A stretch of 52,571 bases of DNA from an uncultured Verrucomicrobiota bacterium (lineage in GTDB: Bacteria; Verrucomicrobiota; Verrucomicrobiia; Palsa-1439): the NCBI GenBank assembly GCA_903847335.1, contig CAINDI010000113.1:1-52571 (forward strand). Direction: 5' to 3'. This document shows, piece after piece, positions 13,848 through 26,277 of this stretch (its first letter is position 1; each line of letters begins with the position of its first letter). Below the pieces are notes generated by a model. That model saw only the letters and a list, made by a program, of their open reading frames with translations. It had not been told where the DNA came from and searched no databases. The position numbers and the translations under genes are program-made.

Positions 13848-16301
13848 ATGGATACCAATGACAATCCCGGAATTGCGTCAGACATAACGACGCCCGAGCC
13901 GGTTCCAGCGAAAACCAGACTGTGGCCGGAGGTGGGCGCCGCTGGGCATTGGGCAGTCATCGTCGCTTTGGGCGCGCTGATTTTGTTGACGTTTGCCAAC
14001 ACGTTGCACAATACCGGATTTGCGCTCGACAACAAATTCATCCTGCTCGAAGACCCCCGGCTGCGTGATAACAAACCGGAAAATATTCAGCAGATTTTTC
14101 AGCAGGATTACTGGTGGCCGAAAGCGGTCAGCGGATTGTACCGGCCACTGACGACGCTCTCGTACATGGTGAATTACACCGTGTTTGGTGACAAGGACAC
14201 TGCCACCGGTTACCACGTGGTGAATTTCCTCATTCACTGGGTGAATGCGATTTTAGTTTATCTATTGGTTTTGATATTGATGGAGAAACTTTGGCCGGCG
14301 TTATTTGTCGCCGCGATTTTTGCCACCCATCCGGTGGTAACTGAATCGGTAACGAATATCATCGGCCGTGCCGATTTGTTTGCCACGCTGACGGTATTGC
14401 TCGGATTTGTCGTGTATGCCAAGAGCACCACGGTGAATGAGGAACCCGAAACTAACTGGCTATCGGTCTTCGGATTAAGCGCTGGAATGGCGGCACTGGT
14501 GGGATTCAGTTACCTGCATCGTTTTCATCTCGAATTGCTACCGGTGGTGTTTCAATCGGTTTGGTGGGTCGTGGGTTGTATTGCGGCAATGATGTTTCTC
14601 GTGTTGTTAATCGCTTCGCTGACAGCCGGTGTGCGCTCGATTTTTTGGTTGTTGCTGCTCATGCTCGTCACCATCGTTGGTGTGTTTTGCAAAGAAAGCG
14701 CGGTGGTCGTGCTCGGCGTGATGCTGCTTTATGATTTCACCTACCGATTGCAGAAGTTGCATCCGAATTGGTTCGTCAACCTCGTCCAAAATTTCTGGGG
14801 ATTTTTCTGGAAAGGTTACATCGCGTTGGTGCCGCCGTTTCTGGCTTTGTGGTATGTGCGTTCCTGGGTTTTTGACCAACTTCGTCCGCCGGAGCTACCG
14901 TTTGTGGACAATCCGCTGGTTGGCGTGGATTTCTTGAGCGCCCGGCTGACGGCAATCAAAGTTCTCGGAAAATACCTTTGGCTGTTGGTTTGGCCGCAGA
15001 CCTTGTCCTGCGACTATTCCTATAATCAAATCCCAATCGTCTCAGCCTCTTTTTCTTCTTGGGAAGATCTGAAGACACTCGTGGTGTTAGGCATTCTGGT
15101 GGGTTTAATTGTGCTGGCGATTTACAATTACCGGCGCAACAAAGCCATTTTCTTTTTCATCATGTTCTTTTTCGGCACACTCCTGCCAACAGCGAATCTC
15201 CTCAAAATTATCGGCAGCATTATGGCCGAGCGATTTCTCTATCTGCCATCGCTGGGATTTGCCGGTGTCATCGTGGTGCTAGTCTATGTGACCTGCAGGC
15301 GGTTCATTCCGCGTTTGGATATTTCGGCGTGGTCACAACGAATCTGGCTGCAGGTTGTCGCTCGTGGAGTGCTGGCGTTAGTAGTTTTGGCGTTTGCCGC
15401 GCGCTCGTTCAAACGGAATTACGACTGGGAAGATGATGTGAGTTTATGGACGCAAGCGGTCGATGCATGTCCGAATAGTTTCAAAACTCACAAATCACTC
15501 GCCTACGCTCTTTACGAAAAAGATACGGACTACCGGAACATCGATCGCATTATTGACGAAGGCGAAAAAGCCGCACAAATCACTGACAAAACTCAAATCG
15601 TTTTCCTCCATCTCGGCGCCTATTACCGGATCAAAGGCGATCTCGTCGCCCAACACACCGCCGATGGTTCGCTCATCGCTTCTCCGGCGAGTCTGCCGTG
15701 GTACCAGAAATCCGTCGCCACCCTCGAACGCGCCATTCCGCTCGACCACGAATTCAACGGCGACAACCGGCGTAAAGAACTTCTGCGCGGCCGCAAACCC
15801 GAAGAAATTCCCGACATCGGCAACCACGAAATTTATTGGAATCTTGGGCTTTCGCACATGCGCCTCGGTAATTACGCTGACGCACTGAAAGCTTACCAAG
15901 CGATGGCGCATCTCGCGCCCGCCAATCCGGATTCCTATCAAAGCATCGCCTCCGCCTACATCTCGGCTGGCCGAAATGAAGAAGCCGCCATCACTTTGCT
16001 TCAGGCTTTACTACTCGACGGCAACCGGCAAGAAGCGCTGCGTTACCTCGTCGAAATTTACAAGCAAATCGACCGCGATGGCTGCGCGCTGATTTTTTCT
16101 CCCGGTCATCCTGTCGCCCAACTCAATGCCGACTGTGCACTCGTCAAAACTCACATCTGCCGCGCCTACGCCAATCTGAATCAAACTTTTCTCGACGCCA
16201 AACAGCCGGCGCTCGCCAAGCAAACTCGCGACAACGCGCTCAACACTTACAAATGCGATGCCGCGCTGTTCAATCCGCCGGCCGTCACGGCCACCAAATA
16301 A
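13848..16301 (+). CDS. TMTC-like polytopic membrane protein with C-terminal TPR repeats
   Basis: The protein starts with a polar stretch, then about ten membrane helices, then tetratricopeptide repeats (for example IYWNLGLSHMRLGNYADALK and PDSYQSIASAYISAGRNEEA). LYRPLTTLSYMVNY, HPVVTESVTNIIGRADL and IIGSIMAERFLYLPSLGF are typical of the TMTC/DUF1736 family, which is related to C-type mannosyltransferases using lipid-linked sugars. The open frame extends upstream to 13635, but that part overlaps the divergent 45-residue gene. ATG 13779 and ATG 13848 are the realistic starts; I chose 13848 because a TTGACA (13791-13796) lies between them. It has a paralogue at 31492-33177. Enzymatic activity is inferred from the family only. 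Confidence 0.8.
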   Translation: MDTNDNPGIASDITTPEPVPAKTRLWPEVGAAGHWAVIVALGALILLTFANTLHNTGFALDNKFILLEDPRLRDNKPENIQQIFQQDYWWPKAVSGLYRPLTTLSYMVNYTVFGDKDTATGYHVVNFLIHWVNAILVYLLVLILMEKLWPALFVAAIFATHPVVTESVTNIIGRADLFATLTVLLGFVVYAKSTTVNEEPETNWLSVFGLSAGMAALVGFSYLHRFHLELLPVVFQSVWWVVGCIAAMMFLVLLIASLTAGVRSIFWLLLLMLVTIVGVFCKESAVVVLGVMLLYDFTYRLQKLHPNWFVNLVQNFWGFFWKGYIALVPPFLALWYVRSWVFDQLRPPELPFVDNPLVGVDFLSARLTAIKVLGKYLWLLVWPQTLSCDYSYNQIPIVSASFSSWEDLKTLVVLGILVGLIVLAIYNYRRNKAIFFFIMFFFGTLLPTANLLKIIGSIMAERFLYLPSLGFAGVIVVLVYVTCRRFIPRLDISAWSQRIWLQVVARGVLALVVLAFAARSFKRNYDWEDDVSLWTQAVDACPNSFKTHKSLAYALYEKDTDYRNIDRIIDEGEKAAQITDKTQIVFLHLGAYYRIKGDLVAQHTADGSLIASPASLPWYQKSVATLERAIPLDHEFNGDNRRKELLRGRKPEEIPDIGNHEIYWNLGLSHMRLGNYADALKAYQAMAHLAPANPDSYQSIASAYISAGRNEEAAITLLQALLLDGNRQEALRYLVEIYKQIDRDGCALIFSPGHPVAQLNADCALVKTHICRAYANLNQTFLDAKQPALAKQTRDNALNTYKCDAALFNPPAVTATK

Positions 16302-16311
16302 ACCGGCGCCG

Positions 16312-16890
16312 ATGCGCTACGAAACTTTCGCTCCGCTCACCGGTTACCCACACGCTTTCACTCTTCGCGATCCCGGTGACGAGACCCGTGCCGCTGATTT
16401 TCCGGTACAAGTCACAAAAGATTTCGGCTATTCCGATTTCGCTGCCGCCGAACAAACTCATGGCAACGGTGTCGCCATCGTCAATCAATCCGGTACCGTT
16501 GCTGGCGTCGACGCGCTCATCACCCGGCAATGCGGTTTACCATTAATTATTCGCTGCGCCGATTGTGCGCCGGTCTTCATCATCGACCGTGCCGCACCGG
16601 TGATTGCGCTCGTCCACTCTGGCAAGAAAGGCACAAACCTCAATGTAGTCGGTGCAACCGTGGCGGCGATGCAACCACGCGCCGGTGTTGCCTTCATCGG
16701 TCCCAGCATCGGTGCGTGTCATTACGAAATGGATTTGTGGACAGAAATCGAAGCGCAACTCCGCGCCGCCGGTATCACAGAAATTCACAACTCGCGCATT
16801 TGCACCGCTTGCCATCTCGACCGGTATTATTCCTATCGCGCCGAACGCGGCCAAACCGGCCGGATGTTTGCGCTCTTGGCGCTAGCTTAG
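16312..16890 (+). CDS. pgeF: Laccase-domain protein, peptidoglycan editing factor PgeF/YfiH family
   Basis: The family motifs appear in order: AAEQTHGNGV, RCADCAPVFI, IALVHSGKKGT, GPSIGACHYEM and CTACHLDRYYSYRAERGQTGRMF, with the histidines and cysteines that bind metal. Members are multi-copper-oxidase-like purine nucleoside enzymes, and in E. coli YfiH affects peptidoglycan side-chain composition. At 192 residues it is shorter than the usual ~240-250, mainly at the N-terminus, and the usual HAGWRG is HSGKKG. Its last nine bases overlap the end of the convergent fmt gene. It starts ten bases after the TMTC-like gene. Confidence 0.85.
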   Translation: MRYETFAPLTGYPHAFTLRDPGDETRAADFPVQVTKDFGYSDFAAAEQTHGNGVAIVNQSGTVAGVDALITRQCGLPLIIRCADCAPVFIIDRAAPVIALVHSGKKGTNLNVVGATVAAMQPRAGVAFIGPSIGACHYEMDLWTEIEAQLRAAGITEIHNSRICTACHLDRYYSYRAERGQTGRMFALLALA

Positions 16891-18864: not shown

Positions 18865-19944
18865 CTACCATTTTTCATTTGGACCGCGTGGAACGGCGAT
18901 GGTGGTATCCGCATCAAGCGACCGAGGCCGGTAGGCTTGGCGGAGTTGGCCGTGCTCGTCTAGGAATTGCTGACGCCAGCGCCGGTAGGCGGTGACGATT
19001 TCGTCGAACTCCTGCCGGTGGTTGAGGTGAATCATCCGTTTGTCGAATTCTTTCACCGGGCCGAAGCGCCGAGAATATTGGAGCGAAACTTTGCGGAACT
19101 GCCGGCAACCTTGCGCTTCGCCAAAAACTTCCACCATCCGGTCGAGGTGCTTAGTCATCACAGCGAGGCGTTCATCGAGCGTCGGCTCCGGTAGCTCTTC
19201 GCCGGTGGCGAGAAAATGTGCGGTGTGCCGGAAAATCCACGGATTATAAAACGCGCCGCGTCCGATGCTGACGGCGGCGCAGCCGGTCTCGTCGAACATC
19301 CGTTTCGCGGCGCGCGGCGTGGTGATGTCGCCATTGCCGATGACTGGAACATTTTTCACGGCTTCGACGACGGCGCGGATGCCGGCAAGATTTACTTTGC
19401 CGGTAAAGCCTTGTTCCCGGGTCCGGCCGTGGATGATGATGCCGGCAACTCCGACATCAGCGAGCGCGCGAGCGAGATCGGGCGCGGTGAGATTGTCGGC
19501 GTCCCAGCCGAGCCGCATTTTGCAGGTGACCGGAATCTTGACAGCGTCCACCATCGCTTTGACGAGGCGAATGGCTTTGGCGTGATCGGTGAGCAAAGCA
19601 GAACCGCCACCGTTCCGGCAGACCTTGTGCACCGGACAACCCATATTCACATCAACGAATGGAATGCCGCGCGCTTCGAGAATGAGCGCCGCGTCGCGGA
19701 GTTCGGCTGGTTCTTTACCGAAGAGTTGCACGGCCAGCGGTGAATCGGCTGGGCAGGTTTCAATCAGTTTATTGGCGCTGCGATTTTTGTCGATGAGCGA
19801 GCGAGCGTTGACGAGGTCGGTGGTGCAAAGGCCGACGCCGCCGATTTCGCGGATGGTGAGGCGAAACGGTAAATTGGTGTAGCCAGCCAGCGGCGCGAGA
19901 AACAGATTCGACGCCAGTGGCAGTTTTCCAAGGGCAAACGACAT
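18865..19944 (-). CDS. dusB: tRNA-dihydrouridine synthase (DusB-like)
   Basis: Dus enzymes reduce uridine to dihydrouridine in tRNA using FMN and NADPH. The sequence shows the FMN-binding start LAPLAGYTNLPFR, the active-site NMGCPVHKVCRNGGGSALL with catalytic Cys103, the KMRLGW block, IIHGRTREQGFTG and PVIGNGDI. The 359-residue length and motif wording fit the DusB subgroup. It is the first gene of a minus-strand unit dusB-mqnC-fmt. The C-terminal ~25 residues are charged and not part of the core fold. Confidence 0.92.
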   Translation of the reverse strand: MSFALGKLPLASNLFLAPLAGYTNLPFRLTIREIGGVGLCTTDLVNARSLIDKNRSANKLIETCPADSPLAVQLFGKEPAELRDAALILEARGIPFVDVNMGCPVHKVCRNGGGSALLTDHAKAIRLVKAMVDAVKIPVTCKMRLGWDADNLTAPDLARALADVGVAGIIIHGRTREQGFTGKVNLAGIRAVVEAVKNVPVIGNGDITTPRAAKRMFDETGCAAVSIGRGAFYNPWIFRHTAHFLATGEELPEPTLDERLAVMTKHLDRMVEVFGEAQGCRQFRKVSLQYSRRFGPVKEFDKRMIHLNHRQEFDEIVTAYRRWRQQFLDEHGQLRQAYRPRSLDADTTIAVPRGPNEKW

Positions 19945-20023
19945 GGCGTATCTCTAGCCTGTTGCCGGGCCAAACGCCAGTGCGAGTTTGATTTCTGGCG
20001 CATTTCAGGCATCATAACGATGC

Positions 20024-21433
20024 ATGGAACACGAGACCGGTACGCATCACAAAGCGCTGCACATCAATATCGACGCGACGCGCTATGGGACGTTCGCCGA
20101 AATCGGCGCGGGGCAGGAAGTCGCCCGGTGGTTTTTCAAGGTCGGTGGGGCCGCCGGTACGGTGGCGAAAACGATGTCGGCTTACGACATGGCGGTGTCA
20201 GACGCGATTTATGGTTCGACGAAACGCTACGTCAGCCGGGAACGTTTGCAAGCGATGCTGGATCACGAGTGGAGCTTGTTGTTGGAACGGCTCAACAAGC
20301 AGCGCGGCGAGCAGACAGCATTTTTTGTGTTTGCCGATACGGTCACGGCAAAAAGTTATTCCCGGCAGGAAGAAGGTCACGGTTGGCTTGGAGTCCGATT
20401 TCAGATTGCACCGCACACTGCGCCGTCGGAGATTATTATTCACGCCCGAATGTGGGACCCGGATAATGTCCGGCAGCAGGAAGCACTGGGTGTTCTCGGT
20501 GTGAATCTGATTTATGGCGCGTTTAACGAACATTCCGACCCGGCAAAGTTAATCACAAGTTTGATGGATGAGTTGAGTCGTGACCGGATGGAAGTGGACA
20601 TGATTAAATTTTCCGGCCCGGCTTTCGCCGGCGTGGACAACCGGTTGATGAGTCTCCAACTCGTGCAGCAGCGGTTGACGAATGCGGTGCTATTCACACC
20701 GACCGGAGAAGTCATCGAGCCGGCGGAAGTGCTGCACCACAAAGCGGTGCTGGTGGAACGCGGTAGTTTCCGGCCAGTGACCAATGTGACTCTCGACATG
20801 CTCGAACGTTCGCTCGACCAGATGCGCAGTGAGCTGGATTTAGCGGGGCAGGAGCCGGTGGTGTTGATGGAGATGACACTGCGAAATTTGCTGACGAAAG
20901 GTGAGCATATTGAACACGCCGATTTTTTGGCGCGCGTTGATATGCTCTGTGCGCTGGGTAAGACGGTGATGATTTCTAATTATTCCCGGTTTCACAACGT
21001 CACCACCTATCTGCGCCGGTATACTGCCAGCCGCATCGGCATGGTGCTCGGCGTGCCGACGCTGTTGCCGTTATTCGATGCGCAACACTACCAAGACCTC
21101 GAAGGTGGCGTTCTCGAATCGCTCGGCCGGCTTTTCAAAGGTCCGGTCAAGCTTTACATTTATCCATGGAAAAATAATCGCACCGGTGAACTCGTCACTG
21201 CCGATACATTCCAGATGCCGGTACACCTGCGCCATCTTTATGCTCATCTCCTCGAAAATCATTTTATCGAGCCAATTCGCGAGTTCAACGAACTCGACCT
21301 CGCCATTCTTCCTCGCGATGTGCTGGCCGAACTTCAAGCGGGCCGCTCGGTTTGGGAACAACTCGTGCCGCCGCAAGTCGTCGCCGTCATCAAACAGCGC
21401 GGTTACTTCGGTTACCGTCAGCCTGCTGCCTGA
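20024..21433 (+). CDS. Conserved ~470-residue protein of unknown function (GAGQEV motif)
   Basis: I do not recognise a function. The 469-residue soluble protein has striking blocks that suggest a conserved enzyme: TFAEIGAGQEVARWFFKVGGAAGTVAKTMSA split as AEIGAGQEVARWFF and VGGAAGTVAKTMSAYD, then EEGHGWLGVRFQ, DMIKFSGPAFAGVDNR, MISNYSRFHNVTTYLRRYT and YPWKNNRTGELV. I recall similar proteins in Bacteroidetes carrying unreliable nucleotidyltransferase or TonB-related labels. There is no signal peptide or membrane segment. A possible promoter (TTGATT 19988-19993, CATCAT 20010-20015) ends eight bases before the ATG. It is divergent from dusB and followed by the YyaL-type gene. Confidence 0.75.
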   Translation: MEHETGTHHKALHINIDATRYGTFAEIGAGQEVARWFFKVGGAAGTVAKTMSAYDMAVSDAIYGSTKRYVSRERLQAMLDHEWSLLLERLNKQRGEQTAFFVFADTVTAKSYSRQEEGHGWLGVRFQIAPHTAPSEIIIHARMWDPDNVRQQEALGVLGVNLIYGAFNEHSDPAKLITSLMDELSRDRMEVDMIKFSGPAFAGVDNRLMSLQLVQQRLTNAVLFTPTGEVIEPAEVLHHKAVLVERGSFRPVTNVTLDMLERSLDQMRSELDLAGQEPVVLMEMTLRNLLTKGEHIEHADFLARVDMLCALGKTVMISNYSRFHNVTTYLRRYTASRIGMVLGVPTLLPLFDAQHYQDLEGGVLESLGRLFKGPVKLYIYPWKNNRTGELVTADTFQMPVHLRHLYAHLLENHFIEPIREFNELDLAILPRDVLAELQAGRSVWEQLVPPQVVAVIKQRGYFGYRQPAA

Positions 21434-21478
21434 GCCGCCGGTTGCGTTTTGCATGAAGCGGCGTACGTTTCCGTCGCG

Positions 21479-23374
21479 ATGCACGAACCAAACCATCTGA
21501 TTCACGAAACTAGCCCATACCTCCGGCAGCACGCGCATAATCCGGTGGATTGGTTTCCGTGGAGCGCGGAAGCCTTTACTAAGGCGCGTGCGGAGAATAA
21601 ACCAATTTTTCTGTCCATCGGCTATTCGACTTGTCACTGGTGTCACGTGATGGCACACGAGTCGTTTGAGAATGACGAAGTTGCCGCTGTGCTTAATCAG
21701 TATTTCATCGCCATCAAAGTCGACCGAGAAGAACGTCCCGACCTCGACAAAATCTACATGACCGCCACCCAAGCCACGACCGGTCACGGCGGTTGGCCGA
21801 TGAGTGTTTGGTTGACACACGATCTCCAACCATTTTTCTGTGGCACGTATTTTCCACCGGTAAGATTCCAACCGTTATTGCTGAAGATTCACGAAGTTTG
21901 GGAAACTCACCACGCCGACCTTGTCGCCAAAGCCGGTGAGATTACTGCGACGCTTGCACAATATGTCACGATGAACCGGACCAGCACCGCGGCGCTTGAT
22001 GAAGCTCCATTGCGTGCCGGTTTGGAACAATTTCGCGCCAGCTACGATGCGGTGCACGGCGGTTTCGATGGTGCTCCGAAATTTCCGCGACCGGTCGCGT
22101 TGAATTTTCTCTTTCGCGCCGGTGGTCAAGACATGGCATTGCACACGCTCTGTAAAATGGGCGAGGGCGGTTTGTTCGATCAACTCGGTGGCGGCTTCCA
22201 CCGGTACAGTGTGGACGAACGCTGGCTCGTTTCGCATTTTGAAAAAATGCTCTACGATCAGGCGCAGTTGGTCAGCAGTTATGTGGACGCCTATCAAGTT
22301 ACCGGTGAAGAGTTCTTCGCTGACATCGCGCGCCGGACGTGCGATTACGTATTGCGTGACTTAACCAGTCCGGATGGCGGATTCTACTCTGCCGAAGATG
22401 CCGACAGCGAAGGAGTCGAAGGTAAATTCTACGTCTGGACACACACCGAAATCAAAAACATTCTCGGCGAAAAGGCCGAAGCCTTCTGCCGGGCTTACGA
22501 TGTGAATGCCGCCGGTAATTGGGAACACGGTAACAGCATTCTGCACGGCACCGGTTTTCCTGACGAACGTGAAAAACTTTTTGCAGTCCGCGAAAAACGC
22601 ATTCGCCCGCACCGTGACGAAAAGATTATCACTGCTTGGAACGGGCTGATGATTTCAGCGCTCAGCCGGGCCGCGCAGGTTTTGGACGACACCAAGTATC
22701 TCGCGGCGGCTCAACGCGCCGGCCGGCAACTACTCGTCGGCAAGTTTGTTCGCACCGGTAATGTGCCGGCGATGCTTGACGATTACGCCTGTTTTGCCAA
22801 TGCGCTTGTTGACCTCTACGAAACTGATTTTGATTCCAGTTGGCTGACGCAGGCCGTTGTGCTGACGGAGATAATGCTCCGGCGGTTCTATGACGCAGCC
22901 GCCGGTGGGTTTTTCATGACGGACGGCGCTGATTCGTCGGTGATTCTTCGAGTGAAAGACGAGTATGATGGTGCGGAACCATCCGGTAACTCCATTGCGG
23001 TGCGGTTACTGTTGCGTTTAGCTTTGCTCACGGACCGGTCTGATTTTCGGGAAGCGGCAGAGCAGACATTGACATTGTTCGCGCAACGAATTCACAGCGT
23101 GCCACACGCGGTACCGGAGATGTTGTGTGCGCTGGATTTCGCTCTCGGTAAGCCGAAACAAATTGTCATCGCCGGTGAGCCAGCTGTGACGGATACGCAA
23201 ACCTTGCTCCGTGTCGTGCGTCGCCGGTATCTGCCCAACAGGATTGTGATGCTGGCGCGCGATCAAAAAATACCGCGTCTGATGATGGATGAAAAAGCCA
23301 CGGCGTATGTTTGCGTTGACCGCACCTGCCGTCTGCCGGCGACGGAACCGGAAGAGTTGGCAAAACGAATTTGA
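21479..23374 (+). CDS. Thioredoxin-fold DUF255 protein (YyaL / SPATA20 family)
   Basis: The N-terminal thioredoxin-like domain has the family pattern [19 protein letters not shown], then WxPWSxEAF and a CHWC redox pair (Cys52, Cys55) in [16 protein letters not shown]. An (alpha/alpha)6 glycosidase-like domain follows, with [50 protein letters not shown] and [12 protein letters not shown]. The open frame reaches back to 21449, but ATG 21479 gives the conserved start. At 631 residues it is slightly shorter than the usual ~680. The biochemical role of the family is not established. Confidence 0.9.
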
Positions 23375-25611: not shown

Positions 25612-26277
25612 ATGTTTCGTCCCGAAGAATTTCTCGATCTGAAACAGTTTGCGTTCCCAGAGCTTTTTGATGCCGACGCGAATGTGTGGGAAGCGTTGCG
25701 CAAGTTGCCGGAGTTTGTGAAATGTCACTTGCGTCCCGGTAACTTGGGTACGGTGACCGGTACGGCTTTTATCGGTGAGGCGGTATTTATCGGAAAGGGG
25801 ACTGAGATTGAACCCGGTGCAATCCTCAAAGGCCCGGCGATTATCGGCGCGAACTGTCAGATTCGGTCGAACGCCTACATTCGCGAAAATGTCATCGTCG
25901 GCGACGGCTGTGTCCTCGGCAATGCATGCGAGTTCAAGAACAGCGTTCTATTCAATGGTTGCCAAGTCCCGCACTTCAGTTATGTCGGCGATTCAATTCT
26001 CGGTTACAAAGCCCATCTCGGTGCTGGTGTGATTTTGTCAAACGTCAAATCAGTCGTCGGGAATGTGAAAGTTGGTCAGCTAGATACCGGCTTGCGGAAG
26101 TTCAGTGCAATTCTCGGCGATGGTGCAGACATCGGTTGCAACTGTGTGCTCAGTCCCGGCACAATCATCGGACGCAATTCCATTCTCTATCCGAATATTC
26201 TCTGGCGTGGTATCTGCCCGCCGGATTCGATCGTGAAGCTCCGACAGCAGCAGGAAGTTATCGTGCGCCGCCGGTAG
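25612..26277 (+). CDS. Left-handed beta-helix (hexapeptide repeat) protein, GlmU C-terminal-like
   Basis: The 221-residue protein consists of hexapeptide repeats (AFIGEAVFIGKGTEIEPGAI, IRENVIVGDGCVLG, AILGDGADIGCNCVLSPGT) like the acetyltransferase domain of GlmU or the C-terminal part of sugar-1-phosphate nucleotidyltransferases. The N-terminal nucleotidyltransferase domain is absent. Such stand-alone proteins are often annotated as UDP-N-acetylglucosamine diphosphorylase, which would be wrong without the uridylyl domain. A sugar acyltransferase role is likely but not shown. The last 20 bases overlap the end of the convergent Nudix gene. Confidence 0.8.
   Translation: MFRPEEFLDLKQFAFPELFDADANVWEALRKLPEFVKCHLRPGNLGTVTGTAFIGEAVFIGKGTEIEPGAILKGPAIIGANCQIRSNAYIRENVIVGDGCVLGNACEFKNSVLFNGCQVPHFSYVGDSILGYKAHLGAGVILSNVKSVVGNVKVGQLDTGLRKFSAILGDGADIGCNCVLSPGTIIGRNSILYPNILWRGICPPDSIVKLRQQQEVIVRRR

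Follow-up and report, generated by a model that had tools for sequence, protein, structure and literature searches.

What does a protein do that appears to combine the folds of two consecutive enzymes of NAD salvage but retains the catalytic signature of neither? This question is raised by one gene in a 52,571-nucleotide stretch of DNA (contig CAINDI010000113.1 of assembly GCA_903847335.1; the whole stretch is hereafter the window) from an uncultured Verrucomicrobiota bacterium of the lineage Palsa-1439. The gene is an uninterrupted open reading frame (ORF) of 469 codons with an ATG start at 20024..21433 on the forward strand, and its product is the single match of its kind in its own genome. 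An earlier note, made from the letters of the DNA, had described a large conserved protein to which no function could be assigned, and this description was borne out. The window protein matched no Pfam or NCBIfam family at E ≤ 1, and at the same threshold PF02464 (PncC/CinA-C) and PF01467 (NadD/NMNAT) were matched by 0 of 66 members of its family. Since the best PHROGs match (E 0.073) was noise, PADLOC returned nothing and a phmmer search of the PDB gave no assignment, a direct database assignment was rejected. Nor was a description of the family seen in the titles and abstract starts listed by searches of the open PubMed Central (PMC) literature, a coverage that leaves out most subscription journals and all of bioRxiv.

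A profile of the 66 members (A1) searched against the PDB gave 11 weak matches up to E 10, the top one being an unrelated scaffold protein (E 0.078). Because PPAT (E 0.12) and NMNAT3 (E 1.4) were among them, a nucleotidyltransferase fold was suspected. The AlphaFold2 model made with the A1 alignment had a predicted local distance difference test (pLDDT) score of 91.7 and a predicted template modelling score of 0.90, and depicts a soluble-looking alpha/beta protein. Structure prediction and structural search, as the earlier note had proposed, resolved two folds, giving the following layout of the gene:

20024..21433, + strand: whole gene, 469 amino acids (aa), with a predicted CinA/PncC-fold domain, a middle region and a predicted NMNAT/NadD-fold domain (ORF calls, AlphaFold2 model)
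20036..20533, + strand: predicted CinA-C/PncC-fold N-domain, residues 5-170 (VIA-align, Foldseek)
20534..20737, + strand: middle region, residues 171-238, with D192, G198 and R207 near-invariant
20738..21418, + strand: predicted NMNAT/NadD-fold C-domain, residues 239-465 (VIA-align, Foldseek, hhalign)

In VIA-align comparisons of the full model, residues ~1-174 were superimposed on CinA-C/PncC structures with Z 14-16 (142-152 residues aligned), and residues 238-465 on NMNAT/NadD structures with Z 15-17 (164-205 aligned), including human NMNAT3 (1NUP; Z 17.3, root-mean-square deviation (rmsd) 3.5, 200 aligned) and Staphylococcus aureus NadD (2H29; Z 16.6). When residues 1-240 were modelled on their own (pLDDT 89.7), ten CinA entries were matched with Z 14.3-16.2, rmsd 2.4-2.8 and 144-152 aligned residues, while the next-best entries were Maf/ITPase-like with a Z of 7.1. 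Foldseek gave 12 matches under 0.001 for the N-domain, all of them CinA (E 2e-5 to 7e-4), and E 2e-6 for the C-domain on the NMNAT/NadD fold; residues 171-238 were barely covered by any fold match. As modelled, the protein is thus a CinA/PncC-fold N-domain fused to an NMNAT/NadD-fold C-domain. CinA-C/PncC is the nicotinamide mononucleotide (NMN) deamidase and NadD/NMNAT the nicotinic acid mononucleotide (NaMN)/NMN adenylyltransferase, which catalyse consecutive steps of NAD salvage. Both folds agree with the hint at NAD or nucleotide metabolism in the earlier note.

Our reading, to which we would give a probability of about one half, is that the 469-aa protein is a repurposed NAD-salvage fusion, in which the CinA-fold half would have acquired a new active site and the NMNAT-like half would serve as a non-catalytic nucleotide binder. 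The argument starts from the residues: the catalytic sets of both parent enzymes are replaced and a new set is nearly frozen, and therefore the protein probably has a job that is not yet known. Residue counts were made over 125 distinct members, namely 132 proteins (131 loci and the window) minus seven identical rows and with one chance match, L128, excluded; loci of the remaining matching genomes lie outside this set. For the N-domain, three features are central:

20096..20137, + strand: block AEIGAGQEVARWFF, residues 25-38, at the place of PncC AES31CTGG, with I27 for the catalytic Ser (conservation, hhalign register, secondary-structure order)
20141..20188, + strand: block VGGAAGTVAKTMSAYD, residues 40-55, with G42/A44 at the PncC phosphate loop and Y54 at Tyr58 (conservation, 125 members)
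20198..20200, + strand: S59, where PncC has its catalytic Lys63 (conservation, hhalign register)

According to the excerpted text of a study on AtCinA, the S31A and K63A variants were without detectable activity, the substrate phosphate is held by Y58 and R145, and T105A is still active at a reduced level (PMC5384747). The N-domain shares with PncC/CinA-C (PF02464; PDB 2A9S, 5VU3, 4CT8) the fold over residues ~5-170 (Z 14-16), with its secondary elements in the same order, and keeps the equivalents of Glu30, Tyr58 (Y54, Tyr in 125/125) and Met88, together with that of Gly46 in 108/125. It differs in that Ser31 has become Ile27 (Ile in 122/125, Ser in 0/125), Lys63 has become Ser59 (Ser in 125/125), the TGxAGP ribose loop of PncC is missing, and there is no Pfam match. 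The R142 column holds Arg in 107 and Lys in 12 of the members, and its match to the phosphate-binding Arg145 is ambiguous; T106 is present in all members, its possible equivalence with Thr105 having been placed by eye. Around these sites the family has a set of its own. E26 was found in 124/125 and G28, G30, Q31, A48, K49, S52, A53, Y54 and D55 in every member, K49, S52 and D55 being family-specific, and the near-invariant residues of the domain are E26, Q31, K49, S52, Y54, D55, S59, T106, H140 and N161. Five of these invariants (K49, S52, D55, S59, H140) set the family apart from PncC. The blocks AEIGAGQEVARWFF and VGGAAGTVAKTMSAYD thus behave like a putative active site, as judged from conservation.

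In the C-domain, where the NadD signature is substituted, the following sites stand out, among which YSRFHNVTTYLRRYT is the third block that had been singled out in the earlier note:

20762..20791, + strand: GSFRPVTNVT, residues 247-256, the T/HxGH site without xGH, with R250 at the NadD Asp13 place (motif counts)
20981..21025, + strand: YSRFHNVTTYLRRYT, residues 320-334, inside the NMNAT-like domain (T334 in 124/125)
21050..21061, + strand: GVPT, residues 343-346, on NadD GxD, with P345 for the catalytic Asp109 (hhalign)
21305..21325, + strand: ILPRDVL, residues 428-434, on ISSxxIR by the NadD profile, with Leu for the Arg (hhalign)

By hhalign the C-domain was aligned with NadD end to end over residues 246-461 (P 3.7e-4, probability 36%). 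It shares with NadD/NMNAT (TIGR00482, PF01467; PDB 1NUP, 2H29, 5DEO) the fold over residues 238-465, this whole-domain profile alignment and the GxFxP loop, beside which Arg246 and Arg250 are located. Unlike NadD, it sits behind a CinA-fold domain, its loop is flanked by these two arginines, and T/HxGH, GxD (Asp109) and ISSTxxR are all substituted. The xGH of T/HxGH was found in 0/125 members and T253 in 113/125; a His at the second HxGH place (H256) was seen in 8/125, the divergent L127, L133 and L030 among them. At the Asp109 place most members carry Pro (77/125) or Asn (28/125), and 3/125 have Asp; the register there is identical in the alignments to NadD and to A3, a group of CinA-like plus NMNAT proteins described below. 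The ISSTxxR arginine, in the NadD register, falls on L434 (Leu in 110/125, Arg or Lys in 2/125, a gap in 3/125); the A3 alignment gives an earlier register, ending at residue 420 with the ISS of A3 at that point, and there too a conserved Arg is absent, 17/125 members having Arg or Lys at position 424. No member combines the His, Asp and Arg of the NadD signature (0/125). In E. coli NadD, as given in the excerpted text of PMC1249556, H19A leaves 0.62% of activity and a change of Asp-109 leaves 0.038%. Thus neither domain retains the catalytic signature of its parent enzyme. By its own account, the earlier note would have been contradicted by a clear match to characterised enzymes that share the catalytic residues, and what was found instead is matching folds with differing catalytic residues, as compared with the portions available of PMC5384747 and PMC1249556.

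The strength of selection differs along the protein. Columns at 98% identity or more number 39/164 in the N-domain (residues 7-170), 6/68 in the middle region and 10/224 in the C-domain. As a control we used 20 genomes with the family, canonical NadD and canonical CinA, chosen because each of the three had listed coordinates there. The mean pairwise identity was 62.7% for the N-domain, 49.4% for the middle region and 44.9% for the C-domain, as against 39.9% for NadD and 51.4% for canonical CinA-C from the same genomes. The N-domain was above NadD in 190/190 genome pairs and above CinA-C in 155/190, and the C-domain in 137/190 and 64/190, respectively; invariant columns amounted to 50/164 in the N-domain versus 24/151 in canonical CinA. 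In a set of 28 non-overlapping close pairs, wherever dS was unsaturated, both domains had an omega under 0.2, with one C-domain exception at 0.33, so both are under purifying selection. Conservation is concentrated in the N-domain, which therefore seems to be the functional core of the protein. The C-domain is constrained, but not through the usual catalytic residues, and simple decay of a dead domain was rejected in view of the purifying selection and a conservation about equal to that of NadD.

These results refine the claim that three dense, invariant-looking blocks mark an enzyme active site. All three blocks are present and the two N-terminal ones are nearly invariant and behave as the claim would have it, but YSRFHNVTTYLRRYT, where position 320 is Tyr in 76/125 and Phe in 46/125, is much less conserved and belongs to the other, less constrained domain, so that the blocks are spread over two domains instead of building a single active site.

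A group of relatives with intact motifs provides a possible origin for this arrangement. When nine Verrucomicrobiota genomes were re-searched with PF02464, six (G003, G029, G032, G035, G127 and G130; two other families) gave only weak matches, with E 2.8e-5 to 2.4e-4. Behind these matches lay either proteins of 313-337 aa or two adjacent overlapping genes, CinA-like and then NMNAT-like, the NMNAT-like part carrying GSFNPVHxGH or GSFNPLHxGH together with ISSxxxR. Fused proteins of this A3 type are L177, L178, L179 and L181, and split genes are L180 (1390-1896 and 1886-2446, + strand) and L182 (943-1482 and 1479-2045, + strand), which overlap and come from G035 and G127. In G087, CinA-like and NMNAT appeared as two neighbouring matches. 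The split pair is a natural fission or a pre-fusion state. An A3 profile built from four CinA-like plus NMNAT proteins and applied at E ≤ 1e-6 matched 10 of the 194 sampled genomes of the phylum, as a fused protein in five, as split genes in three and with just the N-domain in two, and G159 alone of the ten also has the window family. The Pfam CinA model matched the A3 N-domain just under its gathering score in the two fused proteins scanned (E 7e-5 and 2e-4) and over it in one split gene (E 2e-5). By hhalign, the A3 N-domain matched PncC (P 6.4e-8) and the A3 C-domain matched NadD (P 3e-9), and the C-domain of the window family matched that of A3 (P 1.2e-6, probability 91%). No match was obtained between the N-domain of the window family and that of A3 (P 0.46), the cores of which can be aligned by eye over 39 residues without gaps. 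PncC Ser31 and Lys63 are missing in A3 too, as judged by eye. The two groups thus have a common domain order and homologous C-domains, but A3 is shorter (313-337 aa versus 469) and has the intact HxGH and ISSTxxR that the window family is without. Since A3 is a fusion with intact motifs, a NAD-type fusion ancestor is plausible, and it is likewise plausible from these alignments that the adenylyltransferase residues were lost or replaced in the window family.

Side observations on A3 include two related genomes in which a stand-alone, divergent CinA-like gene (A3-type N-domain) adjoins a more canonical CinA gene in opposite orientation: G159 (C193:73062-73439, + / 73481-73915, -) and G050 (C132:25351-25794, + / 25804-26247, -). 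An A3 relative covering 86% of the query at 32% identity was found in an uncultured phage (LR745208.1:82878-83936, - strand, a 485-kb unannotated record), and 0 of 17 candidates in IMG/VR proved to be A3 relatives. A search of 247 Bacteroidota genomes with the A3 profile, run without a positive control, came back empty. The plant protein At2g01220 presumably has the same architecture with an intact HxGH; a literature search for the locus name was empty.

Two NAD-recycling folds in one chain are a feature shared with full-length CinA (COG1058-PncC) and NadM-Nudix, bifunctional NAD enzymes in which both domains are described as catalytic (PMC3680494, PMC4246079); the partner domains differ, and the text available from these two papers does not mention an NMNAT-CinA fusion. 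Occasional fusions of CinA to other domains are noted and left unanalysed in the available part of PMC3855486, and the excerpt of PMC13036487, on a cyanobacterial NMNAT with two essential histidines, makes no mention of a CinA fusion.

On the reading of a repurposed fusion, the protein would descend from, or be a sister to, a CinA-like plus NMNAT fusion in which HxGH and ISSTxxR were preserved. Its N-domain would use the retained Tyr54/Gly42 site to bind a mononucleotide, of the pyridine type or another, by its phosphate, and would run a different reaction with E26, Q31, K49, S52, Y54, D55, S59, T106, H140 and N161, while the C-domain may act as a non-catalytic nucleotide-binding or positioning module through the GxFxP loop, Arg246 and Arg250. 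More specifically, we would tentatively predict, at somewhat less than even odds, that the CinA-fold half catalyses a reaction undescribed for CinA/PncC, in which K49, S52, Y54, D55, S59 and H140 have taken over from the Ser/Lys dyad and act on a nucleotide held with the help of the pseudo-NMNAT domain. If so, NAD-type nucleotide metabolism in Verrucomicrobiota and Bacteroidota would have a step or control point that is both new and deeply conserved.

The protein would act beside ordinary NadD and PncC, not in their stead. CinA exceeded its curated cut-off in 184/194 genomes of the phylum and NadD in 185/194, and both canonical enzymes occur in the window's own genome. All 60 family-bearing genomes gave a CinA match with an E of 1e-31 or lower, and 59 gave a NadD match with an E of 2e-18 or lower, the exception being G155, whose NadD match reached 2.7e-4 only. 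Because the canonical enzymes coexist with it in nearly all sampled genomes, the 469-aa protein fills no gap in the basic NAD pathway, and replacement of these enzymes was rejected.

Several results weigh against a repurposed enzyme. The N-domain was not significantly matched to PncC by hhalign (E 0.25-0.44), and the residue equivalences consequently rest on register, secondary structure and fold; in one of these alignments (E 0.32), AEIGAGQ was placed on AESCTGG and Tyr54 on the PncC Tyr without gaps. The high conservation would also suit a protein whose role is binding or regulation. In the C-domain, conservation is close to that of genuine NadD, which may leave room for an unorthodox activity. 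Furthermore, no neighbour, NAD gene or other, was conserved across groups at 65 loci in 8 groups with up to ~8 kb examined per side.

Foremost among the rival explanations is a sensor without any catalysis, in which both domains would be pseudoenzymes that bind NMN, NaMN, NAD or ATP and signal to a partner. It accounts readily for the loss of both parent catalytic sets, the retention of Tyr54, G42 and the GxFxP loop as phosphate-site features and the coexistence of the canonical enzymes, but no partner gene is conserved nearby, and the N-domain has gained a dense, near-invariant polar set with about twice as many invariant columns as CinA. Such a set is met more typically where a protein does chemistry than where it only senses. 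We give the sensor roughly one chance in four. The distinction matters: an active N-domain would mean a new reaction on an old fold, and an inactive one a widespread NAD-linked pseudoenzyme.

That the C-domain is still an adenylyltransferase of NMN, NaMN or another substrate, with TxxT/N as an unorthodox version of T/HxGH, is improbable. The fold and the GxFxP loop are retained, conservation is about that of NadD, a His stands at the second HxGH place in eight members including divergent ones, and NCBIfam NMN/NaMN adenylyltransferase models matched a few of the 66 members weakly (best E 0.0038). Against these stand the absence of xGH from every member, the near-absence of the Asp and the aligned Arg and the lack of any member with all three, and two equivalent single changes each cost NadD more than 99% of its activity in the excerpted data of PMC1249556.

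The risk of a misleading name is a practical matter here, in that a two-domain protein without a Pfam or NCBIfam family may receive an enzyme label through weak adenylyltransferase similarity despite its missing catalytic residues. Relatives are, we presume, labelled for example as nicotinate-nucleotide adenylyltransferase or TonB-dependent receptor; if adenylyltransferase labels do exist, the weak NCBIfam matches may be their source.

It is just as improbable that the folds are common only through distant ancestry and that the function is unrelated to pyridine nucleotides. The insignificant sequence match of the N-domain to PncC and the lack of a conserved neighbour across groups would suit this explanation, but the folds belong to two consecutive NAD-salvage steps and stand in one chain, and A3, with the same architecture, matches both PncC and NadD by profile. 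Least probable, by a little, is an active NMN deamidase in which a rearranged putative Ser59/Lys49 pair performs the PncC reaction, since the common fold and the invariance of Ser59, Lys49 and Tyr54 (where PncC has its substrate-phosphate Tyr) are set against the loss of the TGxAGP loop and of the Ser31/Lys63 positions and against a canonical CinA match in every family-bearing genome of the phylum sample. Overall, the interpretation in the earlier note is partly supported.

The family is strongly conserved in Verrucomicrobiota, Bacteroidota and, sparsely, other phyla. A pattern scan of genome contigs gave at least 596 matches, of which at least 595 encode the family, so the ORF is not a product of chance; the best 80 of the at least 595 encoding stretches were kept. 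In an even draw of the same phylum, 60/194 genomes carry it, 57/66 in the same class (own genome counted) and 3/128 elsewhere in the Verrucomicrobiota sample. The A1 profile, with the seed genome counted in each case and phylum names taken from the record titles of the seed loci, was found in 46/247 genomes of Bacteroidota, 5/149 of Planctomycetota, 5/149 of Acidobacteriota and 1/246 of Actinomycetota, where the sole match is the seed genome itself. One of the five acidobacterial matches is L128 (E 9.8e-4), a chance frame antisense to another ORF, which was dropped. Copies in named actinobacterial records (L104 and L108, Geodermatophilus; L109, Streptomyces sp. NP160), as opposed to the 1/246 genomes, hint at horizontal transfer.

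Some record titles disagree with the sequences. L063, titled Klebsiella pneumoniae, is 94% identical to L062 (Pedosphaera), and L063, L044, L032 and L031, metagenome-assembled genomes (MAGs) titled Klebsiella pneumoniae, Proteobacteria, Spirochaetaceae and Acidobacteria, are placed among Verrucomicrobiota copies by the order of the tips in a quickly built tree, which suggests mislabelled or contaminated bins. Because several MAG titles disagree with their sequence neighbours in this way, isolated phylum assignments need care. Incomplete C-termini were also noted: some divergent members, L126 and L127 (Acidobacteriota) and L133 (Planctomycetota) among them, end short of the last part of the C-domain, with 3/125 aligned members lacking residues 440-459 (as does L080, through a contig end) and four Bacteroidota matches (G449, G569, G527 and G585) stopping at profile position 420-430 of 459, the frames of L127 and G585 having an internal stop as well.

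A mobile or phage origin of the family was rejected, as tblastn found no match in plasmids and phages, and a scan of IMG/VR with two short exact peptide patterns, limited in its reach, gave 22 stretches of which none encodes a relative. Matches in the structure database BFVD included one protein of 360 aa from Caudovirales (E 3e-12, rmsd 14.8) and one from Terrestrivirus (E 2e-8, rmsd 10.4), and these possibly share the two-domain architecture.

The surroundings of the gene offered little guidance to a pathway. The 65-locus listing, from which clusters confined to one group were left out, contained 25 neighbour clusters ranked by number of groups. None of them exceeded 4 loci when spread over 4 groups or 6 loci when spread over 3, and the largest cluster spanning two groups had 13 loci, 12 of them Bacteroidota. 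In a separate clustering of 109 loci the clusters were lineage-bound, and one of them probably consists of antisense ORFs of the family gene. An operon partner as a clue to the pathway was rejected on these two clusterings.

In the window, dusB, for a DusB-type tRNA dihydrouridine synthase, lies upstream in divergent orientation across a gap of 79 bp, and an ORF with DUF255/thioredoxin domains begins 15 bp 3' of the gene on the same strand, with a TTG start and an ATG at 21479; co-transcription with this ORF is therefore possible. A scan of 19700-21700 for sites of the sigma-70 type, the only type covered, gave 3 sites versus 1.0 +/- 0.8 in shuffled sequences and none in the 79-bp gap. The assertion that the gene sits alone with its own promoter thus finds no support, the gap being devoid of a sigma-70-like site. 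Elsewhere in the window, a PgeF/laccase-domain ORF at 16258-16890 (+ strand) encodes just 210 aa, matches PF02578 in two stretches, scores below the NCBIfam PgeF cut-off and overlaps the end of a TPR/TMTC-like gene; it is possibly shortened or mis-started.

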